DNA from: Anaerohalosphaera lusitana
Lineage (GTDB): Bacteria > Planctomycetota > Phycisphaerae > Sedimentisphaerales > Anaerohalosphaeraceae
DNA length: 64,000 nt
Assembly (NCBI RefSeq): GCF_002007645.1
Contig: NZ_CP019791.1
Span: 3,960,593-4,024,592 of the forward strand
Reading direction: 5' to 3'
Position 1 is the stretch's first letter. Every line of letters starts with the position of its first letter. The notes below the pieces were generated by a model. The model made no database searches. It had not been told where the DNA came from and saw only the letters and a program-made list of their open reading frames with translations. Position numbers and translations under genes: made by a program. Below are positions 44,711 to 49,345 of the stretch, one piece after another.

Positions 44711-45109
44711 TATCAACCGATTCAGCGAAATTGTAACCATAGTAAACTTTACAAGTCAAGCACTTTCTCTCCCGAATTGGCACCGCTCAGCAAACACCGA
44801 ACAAATACGCCATTCCCCTGCCTGCACATCACCGCCAAAGCCAGTGGTCCCATAAAATCACGGCCCAGGATTGCTGAATCTGCTGTAATGACATCAAGCC
44901 CTAAATGACTGAAAGAACAGCTAAACCCCCGCCCATATAATACCGAGACCACTATGTGACAGTGATGCTCTTTGAACAGGCGGTGAAATCATTTTGTTTT
45001 AGCTTCGCAGTTTGACCGCCGAGAATCTGTTTCTTATTGTTTTGAATGTGTTGGGGGCCTGAGCCGGAAACCCGCATCCAATTTGGTTACTAGCTCATGG
45101 AATAAAATT
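44711..45109. other. Divergent intergenic region gcvT / chaperone operon
   Basis: Apart from the riboswitch promoter side and the promoter at 45012-45040, no gene or strong structure is seen. Confidence 0.45.
45012..45040 (+). promoter_or_regulatory. Candidate sigma-70 promoter of the chaperone operon
   Basis: TTGACC at 45012-45017 and TATTGT at 45035-45040 are spaced by 17 bases, 70 bases before the ATG at 45110. No CIRCE inverted repeat was seen, so HrcA control is not indicated. Confidence 0.6.
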
Positions 45110-46543
45110 ATGAGTAAAGTCTGGAAAATCTGGATCATCCTGTTCGTCACGGCAGGCGTACTGGGACTCGCAACCAGCGGTGCAGTAACGCTGGTCAAAA
45201 AATCTGCGGCTGCTTCCTATCAGCAGAAATTCCCAGAAGGCACGGAAAAACACCTGGAAAACTACGAAGAAATACTCGACCTTGCCCACCAGCCAGAACT
45301 GACAGAAGAACAGCTCAGACTGTTCCAGGAAAAGAAAAACGAACTTGCATCTGAGCAGGAAGATCTACTCAAGGCTGACCTGTGGGACCTTGCAACAGGC
45401 AAGAAACAGCCTTCCGTAATAGCAGATTTCATGTACGGCCAGGGCTGGCAGGAAAAAGTGAAGACCGAAAAAACCATCCATGCCGGCATGGAAATTCTCG
45501 CTATAGTGTCCACCGTTTCGCTCCTGACCGGTTTGATAGTGGCAGCCGGCGTCGGTGTAAAAGTCGCCACAGGATCAGCAAGATCAAAACACAAAGCGAA
45601 AAAGGAAGTCAAAAAGGCCAATAAGGCTGCACCTAAATTGCAGAAGGATACCTCTAAAAAAGCGGCCCCTGTTGAAAGACCCCAAGAGGCAAAACCCAGC
45701 CAAAAATCCGAAGATGACACCGAAGAGGACGAAGCCTCAGAACCCAAAAAGAAGCCCGGCCTCTTAAAGGCGGTAAAGACAGACTCAGCAAAGGAACATA
45801 AGACGCAAAGACAGCGTAATTTTGAGAAATACAAGGCTCAAAAAAGCAAAGAAGACGATCTGAAAGCACAGGCTGAAACCAGTGATCAGAAATCGGTCGA
45901 ACCCCAGGATGAAAAACCCAAAGTTGGAGCCTTCAGTTCTCAACGATTGAAACAGGCCGGCCTGACAGGTGTTCGCTTCGGCAACAATTCCGACGAATCT
46001 ACCCAGGGCGGGTTGTCCCAGCAGGTTGCCAAATTGCAGAACATGATGTCAACCGCACCCGTTAAAGAATCAATTTCTGAACTGACCGAGCAGATGTCAG
46101 CCATCCGCGAATTCGCATCACAGCAGCAGGACCGGTTCCGCCAGCTTCAGGATGGATACGACTGGAACATCATCAAACGATTCTGCCTGCGGATCATCCG
46201 CTGCATAGATAACCTCGATGCGAGGCTCGACTATCTGGCCGCTGAAGAGGAAGACACATCGGACCTGGAAGAGGTACGTGACGAGCTGCTTTTCGCACTC
46301 GAATCTAGCGGTGTCGAAAAATTCACACCCGATCTGTTAGCCGATTACAAAGGACTGGAACGTTACGCCGAAGCGGTGAGCCAGCGAGAAATGACCGAGG
46401 ACGAAGATCTGGTCGGCAAAGTCGCAAAGGTGGTAAGGCCCGGTTATCAGTATATTTTGAATGACAACGAAATCAAGGTCGTGCGTACGGCCCAGGTTAA
46501 ACTTTACAGTCAAAAACTAACTGCAGTAAGTGGGGTTAGATAG
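45110..46543 (+). CDS. Membrane-anchored protein with C-terminal GrpE-like domain
   Basis: A 477-residue protein with no overall family I can name. Membrane helix one is at about residues 4-26 and helix two at 127-151, so the N-terminal loop (27-126) lies on one side and the long C-terminal part on the other. Residues 155-300 are a charged, Lys/Glu/Pro-rich linker. The last 150 residues resemble GrpE: a long helical region, then IIRCIDNLDARL, then LEEVRDELLFALESSGVEKF and the beta-domain-like VGKVAKVVRPGYQYILNDNEIKVVRTAQVKL. GrpE is the nucleotide exchange factor of DnaK, and an Hsp70 gene follows only 2 bases after the stop. Start ATG 45110 was preferred to an upstream TTG. Confidence 0.75.
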   Translation: MSKVWKIWIILFVTAGVLGLATSGAVTLVKKSAAASYQQKFPEGTEKHLENYEEILDLAHQPELTEEQLRLFQEKKNELASEQEDLLKADLWDLATGKKQPSVIADFMYGQGWQEKVKTEKTIHAGMEILAIVSTVSLLTGLIVAAGVGVKVATGSARSKHKAKKEVKKANKAAPKLQKDTSKKAAPVERPQEAKPSQKSEDDTEEDEASEPKKKPGLLKAVKTDSAKEHKTQRQRNFEKYKAQKSKEDDLKAQAETSDQKSVEPQDEKPKVGAFSSQRLKQAGLTGVRFGNNSDESTQGGLSQQVAKLQNMMSTAPVKESISELTEQMSAIREFASQQQDRFRQLQDGYDWNIIKRFCLRIIRCIDNLDARLDYLAAEEEDTSDLEEVRDELLFALESSGVEKFTPDLLADYKGLERYAEAVSQREMTEDEDLVGKVAKVVRPGYQYILNDNEIKVVRTAQVKLYSQKLTAVSGVR

Positions 46544-46545
46544 TT

Positions 46546-48096
46546 ATGGGTAAGATAGCTGGAATCGATCTAGGTACAACGTATTCGGCCCTGGCCGTAC
46601 TTAACACGCTCGGCAAGCCTGAGATAATACCCAACAGCGAAGGTGAACGTATAACGCCTTCCGCGGTATTCTTCGACGACCAGGACGCCAACATCATCAG
46701 AGTCGGTATCGAAGCCGTTAACTCACGGCAGCTCAATCCCGACCGCTCGGTACGGTGGATAAAAAGACACATGGGCGAACCCTCCTTCAAGAAAAAGATC
46801 GAGGACAAGGACTGGAGCCCCGAAGAAATTTCGAGCCTCATCCTGAAAAAGCTTCGCAATGACTGCGGAAGCGCAAGCGAAGACATCAGTGATGTTGTGA
46901 TCTCCGTTCCCGCTCACTTCGATGAGGTCAGGCGTAAAGCCACAATGGACGCAGGTACGCTCGCAGGGCTCAATGTCGTCGCCATCGTCAACGAACCCGT
47001 TGCAGCCGCCCTGTTCTACGCGACAACTCAGAACGTCAGCGGCCGGGTCATGGTATACGACCTTGGCGGCGGTACATTCGACGTGACCGTTCTGGACGTA
47101 AAGGGCACCGAGATAGACATCGTATGCTCGCAGGGTGACCATGCCCTCGGCGGCATCGATTTCGACCGTAAAGTACTCGAGCTGTTCGAAAAAGCCTACC
47201 GCGAGAAATACGACGTCGAACTCATCGAAAGCGAAGAGGACCGGGCAAAATTCGAAGACGAAGCGGAAGATGTAAAGAAAACTCTCTCGCGAAGGCCCGT
47301 TGCCAAAAAGATCATTTACGGCCCCGCCGGCAGTCTCAGGCTCGAAATAACACGCGAACAGTTTGAAGAAGCGATAGCTCCCCTGCTCGCACGAACCGAC
47401 ATGCTGCTCGACGTAGTTCTGGAGGAAAGCAACTCCGCACCTCAGGACATAAATACAGTGCTCCTAGTCGGCGGAAGCACACGTGTGCCCGTCGTTCAGG
47501 AGAAATTGACAGAACGTTTCGGATTCGAACCCACGGTTGCCGTCAACGTCGACGAATGCGTCGCACTCGGTGCCGCTATCCACGCAGGCCTTACAAAAAT
47601 GCGAGTGATGCCCGCCGGCGTAAGTGCAGGCATCGCAGCAGGCCTAAAAGACGTCAAACTCACTGACGTATGCAACCACAGCTACGGCACAATATCCGCA
47701 CCCTACGACCAGGAGATGGGCCGCCACGTCATCGCAAATACTATCATCCTGAAAAAGAACACACCCCTGCCCTGCGAATCGACACAGACTTTCTACACCG
47801 TTGCCGAAGGCCAGACCGATCTGCAGGTCACCGTCACCCAGGGCGAGGACAGCGACCCCGACTTCGTGAACCACATCGCGACCGAAATATTCAAGATGCC
47901 CGAAGGCAGGTCAGCAAATTGTCCCATCAAGGTAACCTACAGTTACGACCTGAACCAGAGGATGCATTGCAAGTTCGAGGACGTCGAATCGGGCAAGACG
48001 CTCGAAGTGGAATTCTCCTCAGGCGATGACGGAGCACTGAGCAAAGAAAACGTTGTACGACATGCCGACGAGCTTCAGTCCTTCGACGTGAAGTAA
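46546..48096 (+). CDS. Short Hsp70 family chaperone without the C-terminal lid
   Basis: An Hsp70 with an intact ATPase domain: GIDLGTTYSA (6-15), VYDLGGGTFDVTVLD (170-184), NEPVAAAL (149-156) and VLLVGGSTRVP (305-315). The interdomain linker is LKDVKLTDV at about 367-375, unlike the DVLLLDV of DnaK. A beta-type substrate domain follows (about 377-505). The protein ends at residue 516, so the alpha-helical lid of DnaK (about 638 residues) is missing. This places it nearer to HscC-like or specialised Hsp70s. It is flanked by a membrane GrpE-like protein and a membrane J-domain-like protein, suggesting a dedicated, membrane-located chaperone cycle. The substrate is unknown. Confidence 0.9.
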   Translation: MGKIAGIDLGTTYSALAVLNTLGKPEIIPNSEGERITPSAVFFDDQDANIIRVGIEAVNSRQLNPDRSVRWIKRHMGEPSFKKKIEDKDWSPEEISSLILKKLRNDCGSASEDISDVVISVPAHFDEVRRKATMDAGTLAGLNVVAIVNEPVAAALFYATTQNVSGRVMVYDLGGGTFDVTVLDVKGTEIDIVCSQGDHALGGIDFDRKVLELFEKAYREKYDVELIESEEDRAKFEDEAEDVKKTLSRRPVAKKIIYGPAGSLRLEITREQFEEAIAPLLARTDMLLDVVLEESNSAPQDINTVLLVGGSTRVPVVQEKLTERFGFEPTVAVNVDECVALGAAIHAGLTKMRVMPAGVSAGIAAGLKDVKLTDVCNHSYGTISAPYDQEMGRHVIANTIILKKNTPLPCESTQTFYTVAEGQTDLQVTVTQGEDSDPDFVNHIATEIFKMPEGRSANCPIKVTYSYDLNQRMHCKFEDVESGKTLEVEFSSGDDGALSKENVVRHADELQSFDVK

Positions 48097-48118
48097 CTGA
48101 CTGCAAAGGAAGAAAAGA

Positions 48119-49345
48119 ATGGCCGGTGTATTGCTGATCATCATTATAGTTATCATGTGGGTCGGACTGGGCCTTACGGCGAAAAAACGCCAGGCACAGA
48201 ACGACCACAACAGCAGCATCAACCGGACCCAGCAAAAGGACGATGGTCACAAACGCCTCACCTGCCAGGTCGACCTACTAAGACAGGCCACCGAATCAGG
48301 CCAGGAAGACATTTTCTCCATCAGAATACGAGGCCAGATAAATGCCCCCGAAGCAGGACACGAAACTGATGCACAGGTGATACTGAGTGACATTACGGAG
48401 AATGAATCCTTCGCACAGCCTGTCCTCTGCACCGTCCAGAAGTGGCAGATGGAGGACTCGCCCGCATTCTATCATCGCGACTACTACGGCAAGCTGATGC
48501 AGCGATTATCTATGCTCAGCTACTGGACCGCTGTTCTCGAACTCCCCTGCAATACTCTAACCCTGCCCAGACGAGGCACACGCCGCCTCAAGTTTACCGT
48601 ATCGCTGCTAAGCCGTGGAACCGAAAACGAAATCGCAAGCGCGAGCACCATAATAACATACAAGTCCTCAAGGCCCGGCTACATAGATATAACAGAAAAT
48701 GCACGCGTCACAGAGACCCTGACGATTCAACTTGCGACCGCGGCACTCGGACCCGAAAACATCGAAAACGAATCCGCCGGAGCAGTCCTCGAAGATTGGA
48801 TCGCCGGCAAAATTGAAAGCATTGACGACGAGCAGGCCAGAAAGCACGTCCTCAACAGACTGGCCGATACCGCCCAGGACGCAGCGATCTTATGCAAGAG
48901 CGGCCAGGGGCTCGACACACTAGCGATATGCGAGAAGCTCGCATCCGTCAGTTCGATCGCCGACAGATACGCCGCAATGGAGCTTTTCCTTCAAATGCTC
49001 GCCTGCCATTACAACGGAAGCCCTGAGCACAACCTCGCCGCGACCCAGGCAGCCCAAGGCCTGCAGATAGAGCATGACAAGCTGCGAGCCATGGTGCAAA
49101 AGACACTTCCCATAATGGAAGCCGAACATCGCGACAGCAATTTCCTGCTGGGCATAACAGACGACATGCTGTCCGGAGACATTCGCAAAAAGCTCAGCTC
49201 CGAATACAAAAAATGGAATTCACGCGTGAACCATCCCGACGCAAAAGTCAGAGCAAAAGCCGACTTCATGCTTGAACTGATCGCCGACGCAAGAAGCAAT
49301 TGTACCACAGAAAAGATCGCAGCCGCCGGCAGCGAAGATCAATAG
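48119..49345 (+). CDS. Membrane-anchored TerB/J-domain-like protein (DjlA-like plan)
   Basis: A 408-residue protein starting with a membrane helix (about 3-20, GVLLIIIIVIMWVGLGLTA), then a beta-rich region (about 45-190) of unknown type. Residues about 205-335 form a helical domain reminiscent of TerB. The C-terminal part (about 345-393) looks like a J domain: LLGITDDM, then IRKKLSSEYKKWNSRVNHPD with the HPD at 372-374, then KADFMLELIADA as helix III. J domains stimulate Hsp70 ATPase, and TerB plus J is the plan of DjlA. AAGGAAG precedes ATG 48119. It is last in the operon with the GrpE-like and Hsp70 genes. The J call rests on my reading of the HPD region. Confidence 0.7.
   Translation: MAGVLLIIIIVIMWVGLGLTAKKRQAQNDHNSSINRTQQKDDGHKRLTCQVDLLRQATESGQEDIFSIRIRGQINAPEAGHETDAQVILSDITENESFAQPVLCTVQKWQMEDSPAFYHRDYYGKLMQRLSMLSYWTAVLELPCNTLTLPRRGTRRLKFTVSLLSRGTENEIASASTIITYKSSRPGYIDITENARVTETLTIQLATAALGPENIENESAGAVLEDWIAGKIESIDDEQARKHVLNRLADTAQDAAILCKSGQGLDTLAICEKLASVSSIADRYAAMELFLQMLACHYNGSPEHNLAATQAAQGLQIEHDKLRAMVQKTLPIMEAEHRDSNFLLGITDDMLSGDIRKKLSSEYKKWNSRVNHPDAKVRAKADFMLELIADARSNCTTEKIAAAGSEDQ

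Follow-up and report, generated by a model that had tools for sequence, protein, structure and literature searches.

A conserved three-gene locus in Anaerohalosphaera lusitana encodes a lidless Hsp70 between a GrpE-like protein and a J-like adaptor, both predicted to be membrane-anchored

The genome of the planctomycete Anaerohalosphaera lusitana harbors three consecutive genes which together appear to encode an unusual, membrane-tethered Hsp70 system. The stretch of DNA under study, here called the window, comprises 64,000 nucleotides and corresponds to positions 3960593-4024592 of a one-contig 4.25 Mb genome (NZ_CP019791.1); coordinates of the three genes and their features are given as positions within this window. 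Gene 1 (45110..46543, 477 aa) codes for a membrane-anchored GrpE-like protein, gene 2 (46546..48096, 516 aa) for a lidless Hsp70 of its own subfamily, and gene 3 (48119..49345, 408 aa) for a protein with a membrane helix, a beta-sandwich, a TerB-like domain and a J-like hairpin (AlphaFold pLDDT 91.5). All three are located on the + strand in the order gene 1, Hsp70, gene 3, and the open reading frame (ORF) coordinates give intergenic gaps of 2 and 22 bases, in agreement with a first-pass annotation that had been made from the sequence alone. For gene 1 the ATG at 45110 was taken as the start, in keeping with most family members; a TTG at 45083 opens the longest ORF and would yield 486 aa.

A housekeeping chaperone set is encoded on the same contig, far from the trio: a single canonical dnaK (229166-230965), dnaJ (4123354, the one Pfam-detectable copy of the genome) and grpE (4124553). 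A genome profile search detected no housekeeping dnaK, dnaJ or grpE near the trio. As the first-pass annotation had foreseen, the canonical genes are thus found elsewhere in the genome, so that the trio supplements the housekeeping chaperones. A search for heat-shock CIRCE sites returned none, and promoter and terminator scans gave counts about equal to those of shuffled sequence.

To follow the distribution of the trio, a gene 3 alignment was used to scan the GTDB species collection; this yielded 84 loci, 80 of which were examined. The complete trio, in the same order, was found at 61 of the 80 loci, with gaps mostly below 100 bases, so that the predicted conservation across related genomes was borne out. 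At 17 of the remaining 19 loci a trio ORF runs off the contig end (one of these also has the Hsp70 in pieces); the other two consist of one locus with gene 3 in two pieces and one lone second gene 3. The latter (L149) is located ~29 kb from a full trio (L117) on the same chromosome, CP070715.1. All 80 loci were recorded as Planctomycetota, mostly as Phycisphaerae, Sedimentisphaerales or unnamed Planctomycetota, and wherever group codes are known the trio is restricted to one order. One locus was recorded as Kuenenia, a title which may reflect a mis-binned metagenome-assembled genome. A gene 3 match was obtained in 48 of 98 genomes, the window's own included. Gene 1 was detected in 21 of 39 near-complete genomes of the order, namely in 12/14, 8/13 and 1/1 genomes of three families and in 0/11 of three others. 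A sample of 294 genomes of the phylum contained five strong gene 1 matches, all from the window's family; four weak partial matches (18.9-22.6 bits) were judged to be chance. In one genome the Hsp70 and gene 3 seemed to be fused (open frame of 1077 aa), but this proved to be a stop-to-stop artefact consisting of two separate ORFs.

Gene 1 carries two predicted membrane helices, as first annotated. The first (45110..45163, +) was identified by hydropathy and appears as a long helix in the AlphaFold model; the second (45494..45550, +) is indicated by hydropathy and by the mean net charge over 58 sequences. Exactly two hydrophobic helices were counted in 55 of 62 family members by the hydropathy scan, a crude method that picks out one stretch even in the Hsp70 of 17/62 members. 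Since the positive charge of gene 1 lies mostly after the second membrane helix (K/R-rich; 58 sequences), the sequence suggests a cytoplasmic location for the GrpE part, behind a ~150-residue linker.

The GrpE-like domain itself (46019..46501, +) was recognized at the profile level. The C-terminal part of gene 1 matched PF01025 with 36.5 bits (Pfam cut-off 25.8), and the region was also found by the genome profile search (36.1-36.5 bits). When full-length gene 1 was compared with Pfam and NCBIfam no GrpE match was obtained, the C-terminal part alone being matched in Pfam, and phmmer against PDB sequences gave nothing useful. An AlphaFold model was built from an alignment of 62 sequences (mean pLDDT 77, low confidence in the linker). 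With this model the five best Foldseek matches were all GrpE (E 1.6e-5 to 1DKG), as were the six best VIA matches (Z 9.4-12.4), followed by an unrelated match at 8.4; the rmsd of the VIA matches to GrpE was large (6.9-39.6). Because VIA Z values under about 13 can reflect a common arrangement among helical folds, the GrpE case rests on profile and fold jointly. Taken together, we are highly confident that the three genes form a module and that gene 1 provides its GrpE anchor.

Gene 2 is an Hsp70 by profile (PF00012, 345 bits), and the profile match extends to residue 508. Eight catalytic or allosteric residues, D8, K70, P143, R151, E171, T199, D201 and D393 in DnaK numbering, are kept in 62/62 aligned trio Hsp70s. 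The substrate-binding beta domain is present, with F426 and T428 kept in 62/62 and I401, M404 and A429 changed. The trio Hsp70s stop 16-21 residues past DnaK 508 in 62/62 cases, compared with 135-148 residues in 29 housekeeping DnaKs of the order (30 dnaK loci were collected; L198 was left out as it gave no sequence). The helical lid is therefore absent, as had been proposed for the 516-residue protein. The linker between the domains (DVKLTDVCNHSYG, 47650..47688, +; DnaK counterpart DVLLLDVTPLSLG) is likewise atypical, as noted before: the positions of L390 and L392 are mostly polar in the alignment, and L391 and D393 are kept in 62/62.

Further changes concern the contacts through which a J-domain engages DnaK. 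There, Asp35 of the HPD motif bonds to Arg167 and Gln378, Pro34 touches Pro419, and Lys48 of the J-domain bonds to Asp477 (PMC8215388). At the position of Arg167 the Hsp70 of the window carries Ala146 (codon 46981..46983, +), and across the 62 trio Hsp70s this position is occupied by Gly (53 sequences) or Ala (9 sequences), as opposed to Arg in 29/29 housekeeping DnaKs. Gln378 is kept in 5/62 trio Hsp70s and in 29/29 DnaKs, so that both partners of the HPD aspartate are wholly or largely gone. The Asp477 position is occupied by Ser in 56/62.

Phylogenetically, the 35 of 62 trio Hsp70s included in the tree grouped together (support 100) at the end of a long branch and separately from DnaK, HscA and HscC, which places them outside these three described bacterial types. 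HscC, represented by one sequence, was the sister of this clade with support 85, a grouping that is unsure because the branches are long. The Hsp70 of the window shares about 32% identity with each of E. coli DnaK, HscC and HscA.

As the first-pass annotation had it, gene 3 starts with a predicted N-terminal membrane helix (48122..48193, +), modelled by AlphaFold at residues 2-25 with low confidence at the ends and detected by hydropathy in 44/62 members. A beta-sandwich follows at residues 45-184 (48251..48670, +), seen in the AlphaFold model and in VIA, where matches to beta-sandwich domains reached Z 8.6; this is a common fold, and nothing more is read into it. Residues 188-329 (48680..49105, +) form a helical domain in the model. 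The TerB-like character claimed for this middle part held at the family level, since 44 of 60 members gave PF05099 matches with E values no higher than 1 (best 7.7e-14), but not for the copy in the window, which was unmatched. The C-terminal segment, residues 335-406 (49121..49336, +), is J-like and consists of three helices (340-344, 352-367, 375-406). By hhalign the TerB and J parts were collinear with DjlA (P 7e-4, with a probability of just 27%). Phmmer of gene 3 against PDB sequences gave nothing useful. Foldseek and VIA searches with whole gene 3 showed no J or TerB chain among the 50 matches listed for each; these lists were filled by the beta-sandwich, and the searches are therefore no test of the J or TerB parts. 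Two further candidate results were set aside as composition: the gene 3 profile matched designed helical proteins alone, and the profile of its C-terminus matched mainly designed proteins, with one match to Pvc4 at E 0.72.

The union of a beta-sandwich with a J-like segment brings to mind the GAP1-N2 conflict neighborhoods, in which an Hsp70 and GrpE are paired with a beta-sandwich/DnaJ (DnaJ-FNIII) protein and signs of a place near the membrane are described (PMC7159879). In favor of a regulatory or conflict module of this kind, gene 3 joins the two parts likewise. No GTPase was noticed, however, among the neighbor clusters present in at least 4 loci, few of which are annotated, and the confinement of the trio to Planctomycetota, and to one order wherever group codes are known, also speaks against such a module. 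We regard this explanation as very improbable.

Next to the fold, the motif of the C-terminal segment was analyzed. The HPD tripeptide reported for the window is indeed found at residues 372-374 (49232..49240, +), yet it is not conserved family-wide: HPD occurs in 14/62 gene 3 family members, comprising 14/22 in the window's part of the tree and 0/40 in the other branch (support 88). Asp (D374) occupies the third position in 55/62, and the residue after it is Pro in 43. In the AlphaFold model of the window's gene 3 the tripeptide directly precedes helix III, and from sequence the kept Asp, with Pro after it in most members, resembles a helix cap. Invariant in 62/62 are G345, Y363, K365, W366, R369, V370 and A381, with the core EYxKWNxRV. 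PF00226 (DnaJ) was not matched by the window's gene 3 in Pfam. Among 43 C-terminal segments of the family it was matched weakly in 4 (best E 0.032) and RPT, which we take to belong to the same Pfam clan, in 7 (best E 0.064); these were the sole Pfam families matched by at least 4 of the 43. Secondary structure, the DjlA-like order of TerB and J parts and the weak DnaJ and RPT matches in relatives make it likely that the gene 3 C-terminus keeps a remote J-like fold. The J-like end claimed earlier thus stood as to its HPD and its probable fold, but is doubtful as a canonical J-domain, given HPD in only 14/62, the missing PF00226 match and the loss of Arg167 in 62/62.

An alternative explanation, that of the first-pass annotation, is an ordinary Hsp70 cycle that has been moved to the membrane, in which gene 3 supplies a working HPD J-domain and gene 1 the GrpE. 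The HPD of the window sits in the loop of a helical hairpin and is the majority form (14/22) in this part of the tree, PF00226 is at least weakly matched in 4/43 segments, and Pro419, which is touched by HPD in DnaK, is kept in 62/62 trio Hsp70s, all of which would fit such a cycle. It is at odds with the absence of HPD from 48/62 members and with its helix-cap appearance directly before helix III; moreover, even the members that carry HPD pair with an Hsp70 that lacks Arg167 (0/62) and mostly also Gln378 (5/62) and Asp477 (Ser in 56/62). A conventional cycle is in our view unlikely. We consider it reasonably probable that gene 3 is J-like but non-canonical, and doubtful that it acts as a J-domain in the usual way. 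Our reading is that of a diverged J-like hairpin in which HPD is not the working motif and whose Hsp70 partner no longer has the site for HPD; we are less sure of this for the lineage of the window itself, in which most members carry HPD. Judging from these residues, the usual HPD-Arg167 trigger looks to be replaced in the trio system.

A possible client is indicated by the genes next to the trio. Directly upstream, on the same strand, a type II/IV secretion ATPase gene of pilB type was detected at 14 of 61 complete loci, within about 130 bases of the trio and in one case overlapping it by about 40. Two of these genes were checked by Pfam and showed T2SSE with MshEN. Twelve were compared with the window's genome, which holds 15 secretion ATPase genes over the cut-off, and all had the same gene of that genome as best match (55-69% identity). 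When mapped on the Hsp70 tree (54 scorable sequences, 14 with and 40 without linkage; 8 unscored), the linkage required 8 changes and was more clustered than in any of 500 shuffles. The linked sequences include the deepest ones of a 40-sequence branch, and pilB linkage and HPD occupy different parts of the tree. Across 39 genomes, a pilB orthologue (57% identity or more) was present in 20/21 with gene 1 and in 6/18 without it, with a Fisher p of 7e-5 that ignores kinship. One of the 6 pilB genomes without gene 1 (G007) contains a gene 3 fragment.

Other genes of this type were observed in the vicinity. In 9 loci (L096, L100, L110, L125, L126, L127, L129, L139, L158) a second secretion-ATPase-like gene lies 1.4-3.9 kb upstream, in opposite orientation to the trio, and a gene that reads as pilC-like is located upstream in L096, L111, L126 and L158. 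Pilus-type genes therefore recur near the trio also without direct adjacency.

Based on these results we propose that the trio forms a dedicated Hsp70 system which is anchored on the inner side of the cytoplasmic membrane. Gene 1 would tether a GrpE-type nucleotide exchange factor via two membrane helices and a long disordered linker, and gene 3 would tether, via one N-terminal helix, a beta-sandwich/TerB/J-like adaptor of DjlA-like layout. Between these two anchors the soluble lidless Hsp70 would cycle. ATP hydrolysis may be triggered by the J-like hairpin of gene 3 through a rewired contact, with EYxKWNxRV in place of HPD-Arg167, and ADP would be released by the GrpE domain of gene 1. As the lid is missing, client binding would probably be brief, which points to a local remodeller or switch and not to a general folding machine. 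The most likely client would be the type IV filament machine, that is PilB and its platform, because a pilB-type gene lies directly upstream in many genomes of one large branch. A direct cycle among the three proteins, the new trigger and the pilus role are what we infer from these patterns.

Several observations weigh against this proposal. Apart from the retained Pro419 and the local majority of HPD described above, J homology was not significant by profile comparison: with hhalign the J part ranked best of 156 windows at 20.0, yet an unrelated window came close behind at 18.7. The 'GrpE signature' loop of DnaK is shortened in the trio Hsp70s, as it is in HscA and HscC, where the shortening is linked with no use of GrpE (PMC8215388). 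The pilB linkage is confined to the 40-sequence branch (14/34 scorable sequences) and is found in 0/20 of the window's part of the tree; the window's own pilB lies about 690 kb from the trio in an apparently complete pil operon, in which, by sequence reading, pilM/N/O-like genes, pilB, pilT, pilC and pilins can be named. The co-occurrence statistic, as stated, takes no account of kinship.

The distribution of pilB linkage bears on a further explanation, according to which the trio is an HscC-like system serving membrane proteins generally, for instance in transport or metal efflux, and is not specially connected with pili. Among the named Hsp70s HscC lies nearest in the tree (support 85), its linker LTDIC resembles the LTDVC of the trio, and it is also served by membrane-anchored J proteins, DjlB and DjlC (PMC8215388); further, 40/54 scorable sequences, including all 20 of the window's part of the tree, have no pilB upstream. 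Such a system would leave the pilB linkage and co-occurrence unexplained, however, and the grouping with HscC is made unsure by the long branches. HscC keeps Arg167 and a shortened lid, and in the cited account it is not thought to use GrpE (PMC8215388). A general membrane-protein chaperone of this type seems to us somewhat unlikely.

That the trio constitutes a dedicated Hsp70 system of the membrane, with a possible connection to the type IV filament machine, is a proposal which falls only a little short of being probable. The tie to the filament machine, taken for the group as a whole, is tentative, and for the window's own copy it has less in its favor than for the group. The full proposition, that the trio Hsp70s are a fourth bacterial class which has its own exchange factor and adaptor in the membrane, uses an EYxKWNxRV-to-Gly/Ala contact instead of the widely conserved HPD-Arg167 trigger and acts locally, as a motor or switch, on the type IV filament machine next to PilB, is speculative and on balance doubtful.

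HPD and the Hsp70 arginine it touches are regarded as central to the coupling of J proteins and Hsp70. Here no member retains the arginine and most have lost HPD, but the intact ATPase is still encoded in one gene row with a GrpE and a J-like partner, which makes the trio a natural system in which alternative triggering of an Hsp70 can be studied. It also offers a chance to ask what a lidless Hsp70 can do. If the proposal is true, the membrane-tethered helpers and the tie to PilB in one branch would amount to a built-in chaperone for the type IV filament machine.

Additional neighbors of the trio were observed. A membrane protein of about 620 aa (KSFMTAGPTLHYSH) is encoded upstream in 9 loci (L137:1031-2959 and eight others), about 185-357 bases from the trio; one of the copies is fragmentary, and all 9 loci belong to the window's part of the tree. 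The one copy that was searched had no Pfam match. A PQQ/BamB-like beta-propeller with a hydrophobic N-terminus is encoded downstream on the same strand in 9 loci (L129:9216-10487 and eight others; assigned by Pfam on one). Elsewhere in the window's genome (L039, C1:2191000-2207000), on the minus strand, another short Hsp70 of 512 aa was found together with a GrpE-like gene of its own. The flanking genes encode a HerA-like ATPase, a VWA protein, a RuvB-like AAA protein and a protein whose start may be J-like; a gene that reads as Cas3-like lies nearby. This locus looks like a separate regulatory or defence island.

Several known systems are comparable to the trio in part. The HscC system of E. 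coli is similar in that a specialised, divergent Hsp70 works with the membrane-anchored J proteins DjlB and DjlC (PMC8215388), in the resemblance of the linkers and in a J motif that departs from HPD, being HPE in DjlB and DjlC (PMC13254874). It differs in the shortened lid and the Arg167 of HscC, both of which are lacking in the trio Hsp70, and in that HscC is not thought to use GrpE (PMC8215388), whereas the trio possesses a tethered one. DjlB and DjlC are tail-anchored with an N-terminal J-domain, unlike gene 3 with its N-terminal anchor and C-terminal J-like part. Closer in layout to gene 3 is DjlA, with an N-terminal membrane helix, TerB and a C-terminal J or J-like domain in the same order. 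DjlA, however, has HPD and no such beta-sandwich and works with DnaK (PMC8215388); in gene 3 the beta-sandwich is present, the helix II-loop region is longer, and most members lack HPD.

Gene 1 resembles GrpE in domain and fold, and is set apart by its two membrane helices, a helical loop predicted to lie outside and a long low-confidence linker in front of the domain. Among the open-licence papers listed by our searches, none was recognised as a report of a membrane-anchored GrpE or of the trio. The mitochondrial import motor combines a soluble mitochondrial GrpE with a lidded Hsp70. Its Pam16 and Pam18 are comparable to gene 3 as membrane J-type parts, one with a degenerate HPD, placed by a local Hsp70 (PMC13254874); they are, in contrast, eukaryotic.

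Bacterial Hsp70s with their own partners or with ties to pili have also been described. MxDnaK2 and MXAN_6672 of Myxococcus are, like the trio, a paralogous Hsp70 and its own GrpE homologue in one operon (PMC11019930); this operon is presented as two genes, and the account mentions neither a membrane anchor nor a J-like third gene (PMC11019930). In Nostoc, DnaK1 and DnaJ3 with GrpE associate with pilus motors, DnaK1 with PilB (PMC9239167); the same source describes a single GrpE homologue in the Nostoc genome, so that this GrpE is not dedicated to DnaK1/DnaJ3, and reports that the DnaK1-PilB contact was not seen in Synechocystis (PMC9239167). StkA, an Hsp70 of Myxococcus, acts downstream of PilB (PMC5544727, PMC4319316). 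These Hsp70 systems share with the proposed trio system a tie to type IV pilus motors or PilB, while in the cited accounts they are not described as a membrane-tethered three-gene operon. If our proposal is true, the trio would provide a further link between Hsp70 and the pilus after those of cyanobacteria and Myxococcus.

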